64,000 nt of DNA. Origin: Halobellus clavatus (GTDB taxonomy: Archaea > Halobacteriota > Halobacteria > Halobacteriales > Haloferacaceae). Below are positions 4,987 to 57,440 of the stretch, in pieces; position 1 is the first letter of the stretch, and every line of letters starts with the position of its first letter. The stretch lies in NCBI RefSeq assembly GCF_900107195.1, contig NZ_FNPB01000006.1, positions 62,001 to 126,000 of the forward strand, given 5' to 3'. The notes under the pieces are model-generated. The model saw nothing but the letters and a program-made list of their open reading frames with translations. It made no database searches and had not been told where the DNA came from. The position numbers were made by a program, and so were the translations under genes.

Positions 4987-6063
4987 TTACGAGGACGGCG
5001 TGGCTTCGGCGTAGAGGTTGAACGCCTCGTAGACCGGCCGGTCAGTCATCGCCAGCAGCGTCGCCTCGCCGTCGGGTTCGTGGTGGTGGATCTCGTCCGG
5101 CGGGACGATGAAGGTGTCCCACTTGCCCCACTCGAGCGCTTTGTCGCCGACGTGAGTGGCCCCCTCGCCCTCGATGACGAAGAAGACCTCCGTCATATTG
5201 TGGAAGTGCGGGTCGGTCTCCTCCTGCATCAACTGCGCGCGGAACGACATCGTCGGGAACAGCGGCGGTTCGCCAGTCGCCGGGTTGACGTACGCCAGAC
5301 TGTAGCCGTCGTGCGGGTTGGGGTCGTTGTTGTCGGATCGCTGATGCAGCGATTCGACCATATTGTCCCACTGGAATCGATACGGCGGCGTCGGCTCGCG
5401 AATCCCGTCGAACGGACCGGGAATGTCGTCGCCCTGGAGGTCTTCCTGGGCGCGACCGCGGCCGTACTGGGACGCCCAGTACCCCTGGCTCTTGGTGACC
5501 GGCTGTCGTTCGAGTTCGTGGTACTCGAACGTGTTCTTCGCGTTGAGCGAGTCGAGGACCAGCGGCAGGTCGAGCACGTCGAGCCACGCGGCGGTCTCGT
5601 CGCTCTCGTTGACGTGATCGTGCCACTCCCACTGTGGGGTGGTGATCAGGTCGTTGTCCTTCATCGGGAACTCCTCGCCCGCGACCACCGTCTTCATGTC
5701 CTCGTGTCCGTCGATGGTGAACCGCAGGGCGTTCGCCCCGTGACGGTGCGAGGGCGCGGTCTCGCCGGGCGAGACCGTCTGGACGCCCACGTAGATCGAG
5801 TTCGAGATCGCGTGCGCGGTGTTGATCGGCACGGCGACCCGCCGCTGGAAGCCCGGCGGGAGTTCCGAGATCGGAACGTCGCGCTCGATGGCGTCGATCG
5901 CTTCCTGCATGTCCTCCCACTTCCAGATCTCCGCCTCGGGGTCCTCGAGGGCGTTCCCCATATCGTCCTCGATCTCCCACAGCGGCTGGAGGTTGTGCTC
6001 CTCGAGAATGTCCCAGGTGTCGGAACTCATCTCTAGGAGTTCCTCTGGTTCTTGCTGTGCCAT
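4987..6063 (-). CDS. Gentisate 1,2-dioxygenase-like bicupin
   Basis: The 358-residue length and two cupin domains match gentisate 1,2-dioxygenase, the Fe(II) enzyme that opens gentisate to maleylpyruvate. The N-terminal cupin has metal-ligand candidates H106 and H108 (PSHRHGAN) and a His-rich PQWEWHDH segment near 148-150. The C-terminal cupin has DPHFHNMTEVFFVIEGEG and a later IHHHEPDG. An in-frame start 16 codons upstream exists, but the ATG at 6063 gives a normal MAQQEP N-terminus. A 1-hydroxy-2-naphthoate or salicylate dioxygenase of the same family is possible. Haloarchaea are known to use the gentisate route. Confidence 0.85.
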   Translation of the reverse strand: MAQQEPEELLEMSSDTWDILEEHNLQPLWEIEDDMGNALEDPEAEIWKWEDMQEAIDAIERDVPISELPPGFQRRVAVPINTAHAISNSIYVGVQTVSPGETAPSHRHGANALRFTIDGHEDMKTVVAGEEFPMKDNDLITTPQWEWHDHVNESDETAAWLDVLDLPLVLDSLNAKNTFEYHELERQPVTKSQGYWASQYGRGRAQEDLQGDDIPGPFDGIREPTPPYRFQWDNMVESLHQRSDNNDPNPHDGYSLAYVNPATGEPPLFPTMSFRAQLMQEETDPHFHNMTEVFFVIEGEGATHVGDKALEWGKWDTFIVPPDEIHHHEPDGEATLLAMTDRPVYEAFNLYAEATPSS

Positions 6064-6253
6064 ACGGTTTTGTAGGTTGAACTCGATAATAAGTGTGTTG
6101 GACGTGTTCACGGAGCACGGCGGACGGAGCCGCGGCTCTTGCCGACAGAGACGATCGCACCGGCCCGTTTTCGGGGTTCTGACGCGCTTGGCTCCGTGGG
6201 ACTCCTCGATCCGGGTGCCAGCGAATCACTCGACGCTTCGTGCTGTCGTCGGA

Positions 6254-10805: not shown

Positions 10806-12212
10806 ATGATCGATGGACTCCCCACGCGCGCGCTCACGACGATTCCGTTCGATCCCTCCTGGCTCTCGCTGCCCGCCGGCGTCCTCGCGGCTGGCAGCGT
10901 GCTCGAGTACGCGCCCTTCGCGCCCGATACCGTCCGGATGCTCGCGATCACCGTCTTCTGTGTCGCGCTCTGGATCGGGACGCCGGTCAGACCGTGGTTC
11001 ACGGCCCTCGTGGGAATCGGTCTCATGGGCGTCGGGTTCTCGACCGAACTGGCCCTCTTCGGCTTTCGCTCGCCGGCCACCTGGCTCGTCGTCGTCGGCC
11101 TCCTGATCGGCGAGGCCGCCAGCGAGAGCGGTCTGGCCGAACTCGTCGAGCGGATCACGCTCCGCCGGATGCCCGAGCGGATCACGACCGATGCGGTCGC
11201 GGTGTATCGCTACCTCCTGATCGTCCTCTCGCTGGGGAGCCTGGCGCTCGCCGTCCTCGTGCCGTCGTCGCTTGTCCGGGTGCTCATCCTCGCGCCGATC
11301 CTCAAGTCGCTCGGCGACCTGTTCACCGAACGCAGCGCGAAGATCGGACTCTTTCTCGGCCCGCTGTTTGCGACCTACTACGGCGGCTCGGGGTTTCTGA
11401 CCGCCTCGCTCGCGAACATCATCGTCAGCGGCCTCGTGGAGTCAGGCGGCGGGCCCGCAATCTCGTGGGCCCAGTGGGCGCTGTATATGGGCCCGGTCAT
11501 GGGGATCGGCCGCGTCGCCGTGATCGTGGCGGTCACCTATCTCCTCTATCGACCGAGTAGCCGCGATGCGATGACCGATACCGACATCGAGATGACCACC
11601 GCCTCGCCCTCCGAGCGACGGATGCTCGGGTTCCTCTCGGTGGGCGCCGTGATCTGAAAGACAGACTTCGTCCACGGACTGCATCCGCTGTTCGGGGCGG
11701 TCGTGGTCGCTCTGCTCGCGTTCGCCCCGAAGATCGGCGTCATCGATCACGACGCCATCGGCGAGACCGACTTTTCGATCCTCTTCTTCCTCGGCGCGAT
11801 CTTCGCGATCGCCGAGGGCCTGCAGCGAACCGACTTCACCGACCTGGCGGCTGAGTCGCTGTTGTCGTACCTTCCGGCGGACCCTTCGCTCCCGGTGGTC
11901 CTGCTCTTCGTGCTGGGGATCTCCGCCGGACTCGCGTTCCTGATGGAGGGACTCGCGGTCGCGAGCGTCATCACGCCGGTCTTCGTCTCCTTCGCCCAGA
12001 GCACTGGGCTCCCCCTGGTCCCGATCGCGATGATCGAGAGCGTGGCGCTGAACGCGTACTTCTTCCCCTATCAGTCGGCGGTGCTCGTCGGCATCCTGGG
12101 ACTGGGCGTCGTCGATTCGGTCGAACTCAGTCGGATGGCGAGTGTCTGCACCGTCGCGACGTACGTGGTCCTCCTGCCGATTCAGATCGGTCTGTTCGTG
12201 CTGTTGTTCTGA
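10806..12212 (+). pseudogene. SLC13/DASS-type anion transporter interrupted by in-frame TGA
   Basis: One reading frame runs from the ATG at 10806 to a stop at 12212 (469 codons, a normal length for a divalent anion:sodium symporter) except for TGA at 11655-11657 (codon 284). Before and after it the frame encodes matching hydrophobic spans. The text around the stop (GAVI-stop-KTDFVHGLHP) resembles family members where Trp precedes the TD-x-H segment, so TGG to TGA is the simplest explanation. The C-terminal half could restart at GTG 11703. The substrate would be a di- or monocarboxylate. A sequencing error is the main alternative. Confidence 0.8.
11655..11657 (+). other. In-frame TGA within transporter gene
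   Basis: This single stop codon splits the anion-transporter frame. No frameshift is needed to continue the homology. No selenocysteine machinery or insertion element is visible nearby. Confidence 0.85.
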
Positions 12213-12266
12213 AGAGCGGCCGGCCGCCGATCGACGGTTGTGAACGAACGACTGGGGCGCGTCGAG

Positions 12267-13820
12267 TCAGTCGAAGTGCTTGTCGATCAACTGCTCGCGC
12301 ATAATGGTCCCCGTGTCGGTCCGTGGCAGCTCGTCCTCGGTGATCGCGTACGCCCGCGGGCGTTTGAAATCAGCGAGGCCGTCGTGCTGTAGACAGTACT
12401 CGTCGAGTTCGTCGTCGGTCAGCTCCTGGCCTTCCTCGACGACGACGACGGCGGTCACGACCTGTCCCCACTGCTCGTCGTCCCGGCCGAAGACGCAGGC
12501 CTCGATGACGTCGGGGTGGTTTCCGAGCACGCGCTCGACTTCGGCCGGGTAGACGTTCTCGCCGCCGCTGACGATCATATTGTCCACGCGGTCGACGATG
12601 TACAGATAGCCGTCCTCGTCGATCCGCGCGACGTCGCGAGTGCGGAGCCAGCCGTCGAAGTACGAGCGTTCGCTCGCTTCGTCGTTGTCGATGTACTCGT
12701 GAGACATCCCCGGACCGCGGGCGATGATCTCGCCCCGTTCGCCGGCGTCGACGGTCGCTTCGGGGTCGGGGTGCTCGTCGAGCGGCACGCTGTCGACCAC
12801 GCGGATCTCCCAGGTGAACGACTCCTTGCCGATAGTGCCGGGATGCTCCTCCTGCACGCTCGGATGCGCGAAGGTGAGGTCCGGCCCCGCCTCGGTCATC
12901 CCGTAGGTGTTATAGACGTGTTCGCTGATGTGTTCGTGCGTCTCCTCGATGAGGTTCTCCGTGACAATCGCGCCGCCGGTTCGGATGTACCCGATGGTGT
13001 CGGTGTCGTAGGTCCGCCCGTCACCGCGCTGGATGTCGTTGAGCGTCTTCAACTGCGTCGGGACCGCGAGCAGTCCGGTGACGCCGTGGGTCTCGATGAG
13101 ATCCAGTGCCTCCTCGGGCTCGAACGTCGAGTGCAGGACCACGGTCGCGCCGGCCACGAAGTGCGGGTACAGCCAGGCGTCGGTCGTCACCATATGGTAC
13201 CACGGCGACGTGCACAGCGCGACGTCGGTCTCGTCGATGCCGTGCTCCATAATGACCTGGACGGCCCCGTACCAGAGTTGCTCCTGGTCGAACTGGACGG
13301 TCTTGGGGACGCTCGTGGTCCCGCTGGTGTGGAGGACCGCGCACTCCTCGCCGTGCGGCAGCGACGCGTCCAGTTCAGGGGAGGCGTCGTCGAGGACGGC
13401 CTCGTAGGACTCGATCGCCTCGTGGTCGACCGACTTCTCGCCCGCGTGGATCGCCCGCTCGAACGTGCCGCGGTCGACCAGTTCGACGGCGTCCTCGACG
13501 TTGTGGTCGTCGAAGACGAGCAGCTCCGCGTCGGCCGTCGTGGCCATATCGGCGAGTTCGGTCACGGTGGCTCGGTAGGAGAGTTGCACCGTCGCCGACC
13601 CCCGCTTGTTGCCCGCCCACATCGACTCGATGGACGAGGCGTCGTTGATCGTCAGGACGGCGACACGCGCCGCCCCGACCCGCTCGCTGAGCGCGTTCGC
13701 CAGCCGTGTGCTCCGCTCGTCGAGTTCGGCGTACGTGAACGATCGCCCGTCGTCGGTCACGAGTGCGAGTTTGTCGGGATAACACCTGACCGTTCGGGCA
13801 AGCGCGTCGTTGAGCTTCAT
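12267..13820 (-). CDS. AMP-forming acyl/aryl-CoA ligase
   Basis: This 517-residue member of the ANL superfamily has the P-loop HTSGTTSVPKTV near residue 170, the A5 motif YGMTEAGPD and the hinge/A8 region VDRVDNMIVSGGENVYPAEVE. A C-terminal catalytic Lys would fall in the RTDTGTIMREQL region, but the usual GK is not seen there: the sequence reads TGTIMRE, an unusual feature. It activates a carboxylic acid to its CoA thioester via an adenylate. The ATG at 13820 gives MKLNDALART; 23 further in-frame codons upstream are not family-like. It is divergent from the UbiA gene. The substrate cannot be read from the sequence. Confidence 0.87.
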   Translation of the reverse strand: MKLNDALARTVRCYPDKLALVTDDGRSFTYAELDERSTRLANALSERVGAARVAVLTINDASSIESMWAGNKRGSATVQLSYRATVTELADMATTADAELLVFDDHNVEDAVELVDRGTFERAIHAGEKSVDHEAIESYEAVLDDASPELDASLPHGEECAVLHTSGTTSVPKTVQFDQEQLWYGAVQVIMEHGIDETDVALCTSPWYHMVTTDAWLYPHFVAGATVVLHSTFEPEEALDLIETHGVTGLLAVPTQLKTLNDIQRGDGRTYDTDTIGYIRTGGAIVTENLIEETHEHISEHVYNTYGMTEAGPDLTFAHPSVQEEHPGTIGKESFTWEIRVVDSVPLDEHPDPEATVDAGERGEIIARGPGMSHEYIDNDEASERSYFDGWLRTRDVARIDEDGYLYIVDRVDNMIVSGGENVYPAEVERVLGNHPDVIEACVFGRDDEQWGQVVTAVVVVEEGQELTDDELDEYCLQHDGLADFKRPRAYAITEDELPRTDTGTIMREQLIDKHFD

Positions 13821-48985: not shown

Positions 48986-49540
48986 TCGGCCATAGGGTGC
49001 GCCACCGATTATAGCGGCCCTTATTTTCAAAACGAAAATAAACGACTGGCAGGAGTGTCGCTCTCTCCCGATGATGGAAACGAACTGCCCCGACGTCCGG
49101 TGGAACGTATCCATTTGCTAAGGCTGACAGAGAGAACGGCCGAGAAACGCAATATACAACTACTTCATATATTATCTACAATTATCTAGTATTGTGTAGG
49201 AACACAGAACGGATTCTTATTCTAGGCTATAATAAACCGAGAGAAACAAGATACAATTATTCCTCGGAATTTTCAGAAGTAAAACGCGAGTCTCCGATCG
49301 TCAGGGCGCGGGGGACAGTGCCCCACGGAGACGGTGGGAGCCGGACTGTCTGTCGGTCGAAGTGTACCGAGCGATGGGGGCAGCTTCAGAGTACACGCAC
49401 CCTCGCTGCGCTCGTGCGAACGCCGCCATCGGCGTCGATCCACCCGTCGCCCGCTCCACAATCCGCCGCGCTGTCGGGTGAATGTGCGCTGCGGCGCCGT
49501 CTGCGAATAGTTTTTGTATCGGGTTATGCATACGTATAGT
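48986..49540. other. Gene-free AT-rich stretch (555 bases)
   Basis: The central part (about 49130-49290) is notably AT-rich compared with its surroundings. No acidic, homologous open frame was found in either direction; the frames at 49192-49539 and 49273-49632 have basic or atypical composition. Two palindromes mark its ends. It may be regulatory, a non-coding RNA locus or the scar of an insertion. Confidence 0.65.
49021..49041. repeat. Perfect inverted repeat with 8-base arms
   Basis: Arms TTATTTTC and GAAAATAA flank AAAAC. The position just after the permease gene suggests a terminator-like element or a protein-binding site. Confidence 0.6.
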
Positions 49541-51539: not shown

Positions 51540-52316
51540 CTACTCACTCAACCGGGCGTTCACCGTGCCGATCGACGTGAACTCGACCGAGATCACGTCG
51601 CCGGGCGCGAGGTCGACGGCGGGCGTCAGCGACCCGCTCAGCACGATGTGGCCCGCCTCGATCGTCTCGTCGAGATCGGCGAGCGTGTTCGCGAGCCACG
51701 CGACCGACCGGGCCGGGTGATCGAGGACCGCCGCCCCGACGCCGGAGGATTCGAGCGTGCCGTTCTTGTACAGCTTCACGCCTTCGAGCGAGAGGTCGGT
51801 CTCGGGGACGCTCGTCCGTTCGCCAGCGACGTACAGCGCCGAGGAGGCGTTGTCGGCGATGGTGTCTTCGATGCGGATGTCCCAGTCGCGAACGCGGCTG
51901 TCGATGACTTCGACGACGGGCAGAACCGACCCCGTCGCGTCGAGGACGTCCAGGTAGGTCACCGGCGGTTCCAGTGGCTCGTCGAGGATGAATCCGATCT
52001 CTGGTTCGACTCGCGGCTGCAGGAGCTCTTCGCTCGGGATCTCGCGGCCTTCGACGAACATCGTATCGAGGAGGCGGCCGAAGTCGGGTTCGTCGACGCC
52101 CAGCTGTTCTTGAATGCCGTCGCTGGTGAGTCCGACCTTGTGACCGACGACTTCCGCTCCGTCGTCGAGGCGACGGTCGATCAGCCGGGTCTGGATGTCG
52201 TACGCGTCCGAGATCGAGAGGTCGTATTCGGCCGTGAGCCGGTCGATCGGCGACTGTTCACGGAGCGCCGTGTACAGCGATTCGGCCAACTGGTCGCGGG
52301 TGTCTGCTGTGACCAT
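51540..52316 (-). CDS. 2-Oxopent-4-enoate hydratase / 4-oxalocrotonate decarboxylase family protein (copy 1)
   Basis: The 258-residue protein belongs to the FAH-fold hydratase/decarboxylase group (MhpD, DmpE, DmpH). It has GHKVGLTSDGIQEQLGVDEPDFGRLLD near residue 55, the metal-binding RVEPEIGFIL segment near 102 and LPVVEVIDSRV. The group either hydrates 2-hydroxypenta-2,4-dienoate or decarboxylates 4-oxalocrotonate, and sequence alone does not decide. A second copy lies 5 kb away (56655), so one may be the decarboxylase and the other the hydratase, as in bacterial meta-cleavage operons. Confidence 0.87.
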   Translation of the reverse strand: MVTADTRDQLAESLYTALREQSPIDRLTAEYDLSISDAYDIQTRLIDRRLDDGAEVVGHKVGLTSDGIQEQLGVDEPDFGRLLDTMFVEGREIPSEELLQPRVEPEIGFILDEPLEPPVTYLDVLDATGSVLPVVEVIDSRVRDWDIRIEDTIADNASSALYVAGERTSVPETDLSLEGVKLYKNGTLESSGVGAAVLDHPARSVAWLANTLADLDETIEAGHIVLSGSLTPAVDLAPGDVISVEFTSIGTVNARLSE

Positions 52317-52429
52317 ACCAACGCTATCCGGCGGGTCGTCAAATAGATTGGTGTCCTGTCGTCGTCCGACTGTCCCCCGCGCCGTCGTCGATCCCCGAGA
52401 TTTATGTCGCCGCCTCGCGCCGTACCGGT

Positions 52430-52816
52430 ATGGACGTCATCCACAGCGCGATCTGGATATCGGACATCGAGGAGACGCTTGACTTCTACGTCGGGGCCCT
52501 CGGACTCGAGAAGACCAACGAGTTCGTCGGCGGCGACGGCGCGACGAACCTCTACGTGCGTGGCGATGGTGCGGCCGAGATCCAGTTCAAGCACAAGGAG
52601 GACCACGACCTCGGCGAGGCCACTCGGAGTCGGTTCGACCACCTGGCACTCGAGGTTGACGACACCGACGCGGAGGTCGAACGACTCCAAGAAGAGACGG
52701 ACACGGAACTGCTCCGTGGCCCGCTCGATTCGACCGGGGCGAGCGCCCGTGTGGCGTTCATCACCGACCCCGACGGTCACATGATCGAACTGGTCGAACC
52801 GCGCGACGACCTGTAA
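52430..52816 (+). CDS. VOC-superfamily (glyoxalase/extradiol-dioxygenase-like) protein
   Basis: The 128-residue single-module protein begins MDVIHSAIWISDIEETLDFYVGALGLE. It has metal-ligand-type residues His4 (VIHSAIW), His in RFDHLALEV and Glu in GHMIELVE. The VOC fold includes glyoxalase I, epimerases and extradiol ring-cleavage dioxygenases. A typical extradiol enzyme has two modules, so this is more likely a lyase or epimerase, but it is the only VOC gene in an otherwise dioxygenase-less cluster. It is encoded between oppositely oriented pathway genes. Confidence 0.85.
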   Translation: MDVIHSAIWISDIEETLDFYVGALGLEKTNEFVGGDGATNLYVRGDGAAEIQFKHKEDHDLGEATRSRFDHLALEVDDTDAEVERLQEETDTELLRGPLDSTGASARVAFITDPDGHMIELVEPRDDL

Positions 52817-52833
52817 AATCTGCAGCGCGCCGC

Positions 52834-53880
52834 TCAGTCGTCGGAGGCCGCTTCCGCGGCGGTTCCGGCGTCGCGGTCTTCTGCGAGACGCGCGGCGACG
52901 TCGGTGATCAGGTCCTCCTGACCGCCGACGACTTCCATCTCGCCCAGTTCCACCAGGATCTCGCGGGGGTCGATGTCGTACTTCTCGCCCACGCGACGGG
53001 TGTGCCGCAGGAACGAGGAGTAGACGCCCGCGTACCCGAGCATCAGCGAATCGTTGTCGAGTTCGGGCATCTCGTCGTCGGAGATCATCGGGACGAGGAC
53101 GTCCTCGGCGGCGTCCATCACGCCGAAGAAGTCCGGGTTGATATCGTAGCCGGCCTTGTCGAGGACGCCGACGAGCACCTCGATCTGTGCGTTACCCGAA
53201 CCGGCGCCGAGGCCGCGGAGACAGCCGTCGACCGTGGTTGCGCCGGCGTCGAGTGCTGCCAGCGTGTTCCCGATACCGAGTCCGAGGTTGTTGTGGGCGT
53301 GGTAGCCGACCTCGATATCGAGTTCGTCGGCGAGCAGGCCCACGCGGTCGCGCACGTCGCTCGGCAGGAGGGCACCCGCAGAGTCCATCACGTACACGGC
53401 GTCAGCGCCGTACTCCTGCATCAACTCGGCCTCGTGGAGGATCCGCTCGGGCTCGGCCATATGTGAGAGCATCAGGAGCCCATTGGCTTCCAGTCCGCGA
53501 TCCTTCACGTAGGTGAAGTGATCCTCCGAGATGTCGGCCTCCGTGACGTGGGTCGCGACCCGACAGATGTCGGCCCCGCGATCGATCGCCATATCGATCT
53601 CTTCGACCGTCCCGATGCCGGGCAGGAGCAGCACCGACAGTTCCGTGTCGTTCAGTTCGGGGACCACGGCGTCGAGGTACTCCTCGGTGTCGGCCGCGGC
53701 GAAGCCGTAGTTGATCGACGAGCCGCCCATCCCGTCGCCGTGGGAGACTTCGACGACGTCCATGTTCGCGGCGTCGAGCGCCGCGGCGACGTCGGCCATC
53801 TCCTCGGGGGTGAACTGGTGATCGACGGCGTGCATCCCGTCGCGGAGGGTCATATCGACCATCCGGACCTCGTCAGTCAT
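52834..53880 (-). CDS. mhpE: 4-Hydroxy-2-oxovalerate aldolase
   Basis: The 348-residue TIM-barrel enzyme begins MTDEVRMVDMTLRDGMHAVDHQF, with catalytic Arg-Asp in TLRDGMH, and has the metal-binding H194-x-H196 in YHAHNNLGLG. It splits 4-hydroxy-2-oxovalerate into pyruvate and acetaldehyde. The ATG at 53880 overlaps the acetaldehyde dehydrogenase stop by 8 bases (ATGACTGA), which matches the tight aldolase-dehydrogenase complex known in bacteria. An extra GTG three codons earlier is not preferred. The last 20 residues are an acidic Ala-rich tail. Confidence 0.93.
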   Translation of the reverse strand: MTDEVRMVDMTLRDGMHAVDHQFTPEEMADVAAALDAANMDVVEVSHGDGMGGSSINYGFAAADTEEYLDAVVPELNDTELSVLLLPGIGTVEEIDMAIDRGADICRVATHVTEADISEDHFTYVKDRGLEANGLLMLSHMAEPERILHEAELMQEYGADAVYVMDSAGALLPSDVRDRVGLLADELDIEVGYHAHNNLGLGIGNTLAALDAGATTVDGCLRGLGAGSGNAQIEVLVGVLDKAGYDINPDFFGVMDAAEDVLVPMISDDEMPELDNDSLMLGYAGVYSSFLRHTRRVGEKYDIDPREILVELGEMEVVGGQEDLITDVAARLAEDRDAGTAAEAASDD

Positions 53881-54817
53881 CGCTGACACCTCCGGCGACG
53901 TCGGCCTCGATCGATTGCTCTGCGACCCGTTCTGCTGTTCCGAGTGCTGCGCTCGTCATAATGTCTAGGTTGCCTGCGTACGGGGGAAGGTGCTGCCCTT
54001 CGCCCTCGACCTCGATCATCGTCGTGAGGATGATCGAATCGCCGAGGTCGAAAGCGACGTCGTCCTGCGCTTTGACTTCCGGTTCCAGCGTGATCTCGTA
54101 ACCGGGGACGTCCGACTGTACGTCGGAGGCGACCTCGTCGACCGAGTCGCGGACCTCGTCGACGTCGGTGGACTCGTCGACCATCGTGTAGACCGTGTTC
54201 CGCATCATAATCGGCGGTTCGGCCGGGTTCAGCGTGATGATCGCCTTGCCGTCCTCGGCGCCGCCGACCTCCTCGAGGCCCGCGGCGGTCGTCTGCGTGA
54301 ACTTGTCGATGTTCTGTCGCGTTCCCGGGCCGGCGCTCTTCGAGGCGATGTGGGACGTCATCTCCGCGTACTCGACGCTCGAAACCCGATCAACGGCGTG
54401 TACGATCGGAATCGTCGCTTGGCCACCACAGGTGACCATATTCACGTTCTCGTGACCCTCCGCGACGACGTCGTCGGCGTTGACCACGGGGACGGTGTAG
54501 GGACCGATCGCCGCGGGCGTGAGGTCGACTGCGAACAGCCCGAGATCCTCGTACACGGGCGCGTGCTGTTCGTGGATGCCCGCACTCGTGGCCTCGAAGA
54601 CGAGATCGAACTCGTCGGCGTGCGCTTTGATGCTGTCGATGCCCTCGGTACCGACGTCGACGCCCTCGTCGACGGCGGCCTGGAGCCCATCGCTCTCTTC
54701 GACCGGGAAGATTCCGACCATCCGCTGGAGGTCGATGTTCTCCCCCCGGTCGAGAATCTTGTACATCAGGTCGGTGCCGATGTTACCCGGACCGACGATC
54801 GCCGCGTCTAACGACAT
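53873..54817 (-). CDS. mhpF: Acetaldehyde dehydrogenase (acylating)
   Basis: The 314-residue enzyme has the NAD motif IVGPGNIGTDLMYK near residue 7 and the catalytic Cys130 in MVTCGGQATIP. It converts acetaldehyde, NAD+ and CoA to acetyl-CoA, taking acetaldehyde directly from the aldolase. An operon with the aldolase gene is shown by the overlapping stop and start. A minus-strand TATA-like GTTATTTGT lies about 28 bases before the ATG. Confidence 0.93.
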   Translation of the reverse strand: MSLDAAIVGPGNIGTDLMYKILDRGENIDLQRMVGIFPVEESDGLQAAVDEGVDVGTEGIDSIKAHADEFDLVFEATSAGIHEQHAPVYEDLGLFAVDLTPAAIGPYTVPVVNADDVVAEGHENVNMVTCGGQATIPIVHAVDRVSSVEYAEMTSHIASKSAGPGTRQNIDKFTQTTAAGLEEVGGAEDGKAIITLNPAEPPIMMRNTVYTMVDESTDVDEVRDSVDEVASDVQSDVPGYEITLEPEVKAQDDVAFDLGDSIILTTMIEVEGEGQHLPPYAGNLDIMTSAALGTAERVAEQSIEADVAGGVSDD

Positions 54818-54840
54818 AGTGATAAGTACGAAACTACCGT

Positions 54841-54849
54841 ACAAATAAC
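54841..54849 (-). promoter_or_regulatory. TATA-like box of the mhpF-mhpE operon
   Basis: The minus strand reads GTTATTTGT, centred about 28 bases before the ATG at 54817. Confidence 0.45.
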
Positions 54850-54975
54850 TTCGCCTACGGACCCGTTGACGGCCGCGACTGGGGCCGATCTCGGCCGCGA
54901 CTAGCGGATGCGACTCCCCGACGGCCGTCGGTCAGCGACGAACTCCGGGCGGGATTCTGCGGTTCGCGCTGTGCC

Positions 54976-56460
54976 TCAGAAGAGGTAGTCGCGGGGCTCG
55001 CGCTGCACCGACGTCCACTTCGTCTCGGTGAACTCGTCGATGATCCACTTGCCGTTGTACCGGCCCATCCCCGAGTCTTTCATCCCGCCGAACGGAACGT
55101 GCGGTTCGACGTTGACCGTCTGGTCGTTGACGTGGACCATCCCGGCGTCGATCTGGTCGGCCACGTCGCGTGCGCGACCGCGGTCCTCGGAGTGGACAGA
55201 CGCTGCGAGTCCATACTCGGTGGCGTTCGCGAGTTCGACCGCCTCCTCGTCGTCGCTGAAGGGAATCACGGGTGCGATGGGACCGAAGTGCTCGTTGCAG
55301 GCGGCCGCCATATCGTTCGTGACATCCGAGAGGACGGTCGGTTCGACGAACAGGCCGTCGGCCGCACCACCGGCTTCGAGCGTGGCTCCTTGCTCGAGGG
55401 TCTCTTCGAGGTATGCCATCATCTCATCGCGCTGGTCCTCGTTGATGATGGGACCGATGACGACGTCGTCGTCGGTGGGATCGCCGATCTCCAGCGATGC
55501 GGCGCGATCGGCGAGTCGCTCGACGTACTCGTCGTAGACGGACTCGTGAACGAGGTGGCGGTTGATGGAGATGCACACCTGTCCCTGGTTCCAGAAGGAG
55601 CCGAAGGTTCCCGCGGCGACTGCCTGATCCAGATCGGCGTCCTCCAGAACCACGTGGGGATTGTTGCCGCCGAGTTCCAGCGCGGGGAAGGCGAAGTGAT
55701 CGACCGCGTTCTGGCCGACGAGTTGGCCGACCGGCGTCGATCCCGTGAAGGCGATCACGTCGCTGTCGGGATGTGCAGCGGTCCGATCGCCGGCCTCGCT
55801 ACCCTTGCCGGGGACGACGTTGAGGACGCCGTCGGGGAGACCTGCCTTCTCGAAGAGTCGCGCGAGAAGGAGTCCGCCCGAGATCGACGTCTCTCGGGCC
55901 GGCTTGAGGACGACGCTGTTACCAAGAGCAATCGCGGGCGCGACTGCGCGGATCGAGAGCTTCATCGGGACGTTCCACGGGGAGATGACGCCGACGACGC
56001 CGACGGGTTCTTTCTGGATGATGTTCTCCTTCCCGGGGATCTTCGATTGGTTGTGCCCGCCCGAAGACCGGAAGGCGAAGGAGGCGGCGTCGTGGACGAA
56101 GGTGACCGTCCCGCCGTGTTCGATGTCCTGTCGGGGCTTCGCCGCCCCGCTCTCGACTGCGAGGATTTCGCGGATCTCGGCCTCGTACTCGTCGATCAGG
56201 TCTGCCGTCCGACGGATCACCGCGGCGCGCTCGTCGGGCGTCGTCTGTTCCCACTGTTCTTGTGCCTCGACAGCGGCCTCGTAGGCGTCGTCGACGTCCG
56301 CGGCCGTCGCCGCCGGGACCTGTGTCACGGTCTCGCCGTTGGCCGGGTTCGTTACGTCGAGTTGCGCTCGGTCGCCGGGCGCCACCCACTCGCCGTCGAT
56401 GTAGAGGGCGTTCCAGAACGCGTCGATAGAGATGTCCTGGGCTACCTCAGCTTCTGACAT
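54976..56460 (-). CDS. NAD(P)-dependent aldehyde dehydrogenase (semialdehyde/aromatic type)
   Basis: The 494-residue enzyme has the ELGGNNP catalytic Glu segment, the nucleophile Cys296 in GQVCISINR and the conserved EPHVPFGGMKDSG near the C-terminus. In bacterial meta-cleavage and aminomuconate pathways the ALDH acts on 2-hydroxy- or 2-aminomuconate semialdehyde. The context here, between acetaldehyde dehydrogenase and hydratase genes, fits that role, though benzaldehyde-type substrates are also possible. A 67-codon upstream extension is rejected, because the ATG at 56460 gives the family N-terminus and has a TATA-like element. Confidence 0.92.
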   Translation of the reverse strand: MSEAEVAQDISIDAFWNALYIDGEWVAPGDRAQLDVTNPANGETVTQVPAATAADVDDAYEAAVEAQEQWEQTTPDERAAVIRRTADLIDEYEAEIREILAVESGAAKPRQDIEHGGTVTFVHDAASFAFRSSGGHNQSKIPGKENIIQKEPVGVVGVISPWNVPMKLSIRAVAPAIALGNSVVLKPARETSISGGLLLARLFEKAGLPDGVLNVVPGKGSEAGDRTAAHPDSDVIAFTGSTPVGQLVGQNAVDHFAFPALELGGNNPHVVLEDADLDQAVAAGTFGSFWNQGQVCISINRHLVHESVYDEYVERLADRAASLEIGDPTDDDVVIGPIINEDQRDEMMAYLEETLEQGATLEAGGAADGLFVEPTVLSDVTNDMAAACNEHFGPIAPVIPFSDDEEAVELANATEYGLAASVHSEDRGRARDVADQIDAGMVHVNDQTVNVEPHVPFGGMKDSGMGRYNGKWIIDEFTETKWTSVQREPRDYLF

Positions 56461-56619
56461 ACAAAGCGTAGTACGGGATAGGAGAGTAAAATGGTGTCGC
56501 CACCGGAACCAGTTACTGAGTTGGATTAATCGGGATAGATGGAAGGACATTCGCTTACGTCTCGCGGGGCGATCGCAGGAAGGAGCGGAGTGTGCCCGTC
56601 CGCGGCGTCCGTTGTCGAA

Positions 56620-56628
56620 AGTATAATC
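56620..56628 (+). promoter_or_regulatory. TATA-like box of the second hydratase gene
   Basis: AGTATAATC lies about 31 bases before the ATG at 56655, supporting that start over an in-frame one at 56592. Confidence 0.45.
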
Positions 56629-56654
56629 AGTGCACCAGCGAACGTAGAGGGTGT

Positions 56655-57440
56655 ATGCCACTCAGCCAGGACGAAATCGACGACCTCGCGACGCGGCTCT
56701 ATGAAGCCTACGACACCAAGGAACCGATCCCGCCGCTGAGCGACGACGCCGAACTCACCACCGAAGAGGCGTATCAGATCCAGTTCGAGGTATTCGACCG
56801 ACTCAGCGCGGCCGGCCGCGACGATGTCGTCGGCCACAAACTCGGCCTCGTCAGTGAGGCGAAACAGGAGCAACTCGGCATTCCGGAGCCGATCTTCGGA
56901 TACGTGGCCCACGAGACCGTCCTGGAGAACGAGCCGATCCCGACCGACGAGATGATCGCCCCCCGGATCGAGGCCGAAATCGGTGTCGTCCTCGACGAAG
57001 ATCTCGAACCGCCGGTGACGACGACTGACGTACTCACCGCGACTCGGGCGGTCGTTCCCGTCGTCGAGATCCTCGAGAGCCGATTCCAGGGATGGGCGAT
57101 CCCCTCGGCGCAGGACGTCATCGCGGATCTGACGTCCGCGGGGAAGGTCATCGTCGGCGAACAGCACCGGGACGTCACCGATCTGGACCTGAAGATGGAA
57201 GGCGTCGCCGTCTCGGTCAACGGCGAGGTCGAAGCCACCGGCATCGGTGCTGACATTATGGGGAACCCGGCACGGCCCGTCGCCTGGCTCGCCGAGCGTC
57301 TCGACGACGTCGACGACCACCTCCGCGCGGGCGAACTCGTGATGACCGGCGGCATCTCGGCTGCGATCGACATCGAACCCGGAGACGTCTACCACGTCGA
57401 GTTCTCGAACCTCGGATCGATGGAGATTCGGGCGGAGTAA
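56655..57440 (+). CDS. 2-Oxopent-4-enoate hydratase / 4-oxalocrotonate decarboxylase family protein (copy 2)
   Basis: The 261-residue protein is a paralogue of the one at 51540-52316. It has VGHKLGLVSEAKQEQLGIPEPIFGYV near residue 57, RIEAEIGVVLDE and VPVVEILESRF. The copies share layout but are clearly different sequences, as expected if one hydrates oxopentenoate and the other decarboxylates oxalocrotonate. It is divergent from the aldehyde dehydrogenase gene across a 194-base gap. A 21-codon extension to 56592 is rejected on promoter spacing. Confidence 0.87.
   Translation: MPLSQDEIDDLATRLYEAYDTKEPIPPLSDDAELTTEEAYQIQFEVFDRLSAAGRDDVVGHKLGLVSEAKQEQLGIPEPIFGYVAHETVLENEPIPTDEMIAPRIEAEIGVVLDEDLEPPVTTTDVLTATRAVVPVVEILESRFQGWAIPSAQDVIADLTSAGKVIVGEQHRDVTDLDLKMEGVAVSVNGEVEATGIGADIMGNPARPVAWLAERLDDVDDHLRAGELVMTGGISAAIDIEPGDVYHVEFSNLGSMEIRAE

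Follow-up and report, generated by a model that had tools for sequence, protein, structure and literature searches.

An anion transporter gene of Halobellus clavatus with a single in-frame TGA, probably a recent nonsense pseudogene

The window analyzed here is a stretch of 64,000 nucleotides from Halobellus clavatus (assembly GCF_900107195.1, contig NZ_FNPB01000006.1, positions 62,001 to 126,000). One frame in it, running from ATG 10806 to TGA 12210-12212 and corresponding to 468 residues, carries a single internal TGA as codon 284 (Table 1). An earlier note, made from the letters alone, had described this lone stop, with the frame continuing unchanged on both sides, and the sequence confirms it; GC3 is 0.887 before the stop and 0.886 after. 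The transporter gene stands alone between two genes on the minus strand, one for an MBL-fold protein upstream and one for an AMP-binding CoA ligase downstream, and both neighbors are present at seven of the nine named loci, with one locus (L039) possessing the ligase side only and another (L035) possessing neither. A scan of positions 11500-12300 for promoters and terminators found none, with sigma-70 patterns, which do not fit archaea.

Table 1. The interrupted transporter gene and its parts, in positions of the window.
Feature	Position	Strand	Basis or remark
DASS-like (SLC13/INDY-type) anion transporter gene, interrupted	10806..12212	+	Frame, homology, PF00939, Foldseek
5' open frame, 283 aa	10806..11657	+	First structural repeat and the greater part of the helix that opens the second (repeats assigned by eye on the model)
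8-codon patch, residues 278-285	11637..11660	+	Four departures from genus-invariant residues, stop included
In-frame TGA, residue 284	11655..11657	+	Trp (TGG) in 26/26 aligned homologues
3' remainder, ending in TGA	11658..12212	+	Still near the family consensus
GTG, candidate restart of the earlier note	11703..11705	+	Ordinary Val codon; GTG in 4/27 rows

As to the identity of the protein, the whole frame matches PF00939 (Na_sulph_symp, SLC13/DASS clan) with 103.3 bits, and the parts upstream and downstream of the stop score 74.4 and 31.0 bits, each above the Pfam gathering cut-off of 27, in line with the clear family homology proposed for both sides of the TGA. An AlphaFold2 model of the read-through frame is of moderate confidence (pLDDT 73.8, pTM 0.74), and its top 33 Foldseek matches are all divalent-anion, citrate, sulfate or phosphate transporters of the INDY/DASS fold, the best PDB matches being VcINDY (5ul7), LaINDY (6wtw), AtDiT1 (9mcr), and NaDC1 (8w6c), with query TM of 0.54-0.73. 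Searches against PDB chains with phmmer and with a profile found no sequence match. The modeled fold points to a small anion as substrate, such as a di- or tricarboxylate. Two Ser-Asn-Thr motifs form the sodium sites of the sodium-coupled DASS symporters, as established in work on VcINDY. This tripeptide is absent in all 27 aligned proteins, that of the window included, the presumed places being occupied in the alignment by SLANI-like and MEGLAVASV-like stretches, and since the motifs are missing in this haloarchaeal subgroup (the protein of the window and its 26 homologues), its coupling ion may differ from that of the sodium-coupled members. The frame scores 129.6 bits with TIGR00785 (NCBIfam dass, sodium-coupled DASS symporters), below the curated cut-off of 198.6, and, because of this and of the missing motifs, the family name is given here with reserve.

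Tryptophan was expected to fit the family at the position of the stop, and all 26 homologues in the 27-row alignment indeed possess TGG in this column. This alignment includes the copy of the window and leaves out split or distant matches (L025-L031), weaker matches without a locus, and contigs that, judged by their length, duplicate rows already included (L032, L033, L034, L037, and L039). Among the 118 genomes searched, 35 have a protein match, and an internal stop is found only in the match from the genome of the window itself. Within the genus, 12 of 17 genomes match at the DNA level, and 11 of 17 encode an orthologue of at least 75% identity, the genome of the window counted in both cases. 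The nearest named relatives are Halobellus rufus, Halobellus captivus, Halobellus rarus, and Halobellus inordinatus, at 77-80% identity over 466-468 residues. In the model, residue 284 lies at the end of helix 268-285, where confidence is low; another Trp, at residue 56, invariant in all 27 rows, sits in helix 40-58, and, judged by eye, the motifs LWxxxP and xWxTDxxHG seem to occupy equivalent positions in the two repeats.

The site turns out to be more than a lone TGA, a point that the earlier note had missed: codon 285 and two codons just upstream of the stop also differ. All four departures, L278S, V281A, W284*, and A285K, occur within 8 codons, at columns that are invariant in the other ten genus orthologues. 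In total, the copy of the window departs at ten of the 267 genus-invariant columns, and the placement of four of the ten within 8 codons has a p of 0.0022 (5000 shuffles), while the same test on each of the other ten orthologues detects no clustering (p of 0.5 or more). The clustering is weaker at the nucleotide level, where seven private changes in 30 bases are found (p 0.05) and two further members of the genus have clusters of their own at other places in the gene (p 0.0015 and 0.01). In pairwise comparison with the sister genome, windows as divergent as the patch number 167 of 13566 and come from 17 of 44 genes. Overall, the patch provides moderate evidence of a real, complex change at the site, not of one miscalled base. 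As to its source, template switching was considered and rejected: with up to three mismatches allowed, the 18-base string of the site matches the genome at just two further places, and nearby direct or inverted matches reach 10 bases at most.

The patch bears directly on what we consider the main, if rather unlikely, rival explanation, an error of sequencing or assembly, with an intact gene in the living strain. Because several departures are clustered, miscalling of one base would be insufficient to produce the site: a number of neighboring bases differ, three of them adjacent at genus-invariant columns, and correction of a lone miscall would still leave Lys next to the Trp site, versus Ala, Met or Thr in all 26 homologues. 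The location, well inside a 225-kb contig, also argues against an error, as does the lack of any frameshift or interior stop in the other genes compared. On the other hand, the 3.75-Mb genome is a draft assembly in 30 contigs, no other compared gene in the window is broken, and no further decay is seen in the transporter gene before or after the stop, as would equally be expected under an error.

The age of the break was approached through Nei-Gojobori distances, with six outgroups for the branch estimates. For the whole gene, the branch of the window has dN of 0.040-0.052 and dS of 0.36-0.43; for the part after the stop, the values are 0.020-0.043 and 0.29-0.48 on this branch, and 0.030-0.053 and 0.16-0.35 on the sister branch. 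There is thus no excess of dN downstream of the stop, and change is confined to the local patch, as expected if the break is recent. The values after the stop are similar on the two branches, and by these estimates purifying selection still appears visible in the remainder of the gene, before as well as after the stop. As decay after the stop is lacking over most of the branch, the break is recent, or not real, or tolerated via readthrough. Of the three choices offered in the earlier note, a recent nonsense mutation, a sequencing error, and a split protein, the first is the best supported, dN/dS being low before the stop as well as after it, and the last is disfavored.

Functional readthrough of the single UGA, in which a near-cognate tRNA would insert Trp or some other amino acid and some full-length transporter would be produced, we consider improbable. 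It would agree with the low dN/dS after the stop, as this absence of decay is equally expected under readthrough, and with Trp as the family residue at the site, and passages of PMC8211752 describe stop readthrough as a kind of recoding, along with frameshifting and the redefinition of UGA and UAG for Sec and Pyl. However, none of the other genomes among the 118 searched has a stop here, the residues around the stop have changed as well, and, according to the abstract of PMC8037382, Sec and Pyl are the sole established cases of stop readthrough in Archaea. The tRNA complement also speaks against it: RF00005 has 42 matches in the genome, ARAGORN reads 41, and none of the 41 has a UCA anticodon, in a set that is incomplete, as tRNA-Trp itself was not recovered; the best tRNA-Sec match (RF01852) scores 41.9 bits versus a cut-off of 47, and such matches lie at places of ordinary tRNAs. 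Slightly less probable still is the fuller form of this proposal, in which readthrough would be context-dependent and selection would still act past the stop on a haloarchaeal transporter made full-length. If true, it would present a rare case of stop decoding in an archaeon involving neither Sec nor Pyl. A separate observation concerns a tRNA-like RF00005 match that ARAGORN does not read (L094; contig 20 of this genome, positions 119458-119751). Close to the anticodon region it contains a perfect 8-bp hairpin, it is present in 12 of the 17 genus genomes, and it possibly represents an intron-bearing tRNA.

Genome-wide reading of UGA as Trp is hardly credible, its sole support being that Trp fits the site. 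The end codons of the 43 intact neighbor frames compared are 23 TGA, 13 TAA, and 7 TAG; the transporter gene itself also ends in TGA, and the tRNA list, with the gap noted above, provides no tRNA with the UCA anticodon. End codons and tRNAs together led to the rejection of this reassignment as well as of selenocysteine.

A split protein, with the 3' part translated separately from the GTG and pairing with the 5' half, is very improbable. This codon is in frame, 45 bases past the stop, and up to residue 353 no other in-frame start codon is present after the stop; the break is also near the start of the second repeat. The alignments, in which the codon is not conserved, nevertheless speak against a restart there. 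No start codon overlaps the TGA, and a protein restarted at the GTG would begin inside predicted helix 293-306 and would omit residues 285-299, including the HGLHP segment and eight residues that are invariant in a 19-row alignment (T286, D287, H290, G291, H293, P294, G297, and A298). Among the 118 genomes, no relative was found to have the gene as two separate frames.

Wider decay of the region was also considered and rejected: of 64 sister-genome frames, 53 were matched at 60% identity or more, and 43 were covered over at least 85% without a stop, the other in-frame stops in the comparison belonging, as judged by eye, to antisense shadow frames or preceding the likely start. Eight genus genomes that possess the orthologue also encode a second DASS-like protein, at 45-49% identity. 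It is absent from the genome of the window, and this absence fits with loss of this uptake function, without proving it. At positions 48988-49474, the window has about 0.5 kb of partly A+T-rich sequence, versus about 4.3 kb in the sister genome (G013), where the second DASS-like transporter is encoded together with a transposase-like frame and an enzyme (by eye, of the thiamine-diphosphate type). Elsewhere in the window, positions 4987-6111 encode a double-cupin protein that by eye resembles gentisate dioxygenase, and positions 51540-57440 have frames like those of a meta-cleavage pathway (hydratase, aldolase, and aldehyde dehydrogenase, by eye), suggesting an aromatic-degradation region.

Overall, the evidence favors a recent nonsense pseudogene, the product of ordinary gene loss, at a probability of about 0.72. 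According to this explanation, the first helix of the second repeat would have acquired, in this Halobellus lineage, a few clustered changes, among them the conversion of the Trp codon to TGA; translation should end after 283 residues, and the product would be a half-transporter devoid of the second repeat and, presumably, of transport. Since decay has yet to set in downstream of the stop, the inactivation would be recent in comparison with the divergence from the closest relative. For annotation, caution is in order: despite the family match of its gene, the strain is probably without this uptake route, and the related second transporter is missing as well.

With respect to known systems, the frame agrees with the SLC13/DASS family in passing the Pfam cut-off and in the match of its modeled fold to VcINDY, LaINDY, AtDiT1, and NaDC1, and it differs in being too distant for a sequence match to PDB chains, in falling short of the dass cut-off, and in lacking Ser-Asn-Thr. 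The orthologues in the four named Halobellus relatives share the same flanking genes (MBL-fold, ABC ATPase, CoA ligase, UbiA-like, and IclR), while they are intact, with no internal stop. Literature on Halobellus pseudogenes provided no title on this gene, and, for DASS transporters in haloarchaea, no title on this family was among the matches listed. The event itself looks like ordinary gene loss and not a new decoding mechanism. Such loss is routine in haloarchaea; for Haloquadratum walsbyi, passages of PMC3119063 report over 300 pseudogenes per strain. The pseudogenes described there are largely degraded transposases and conserved hypotheticals, whereas the case presented here is a conserved single transporter with little further decay.
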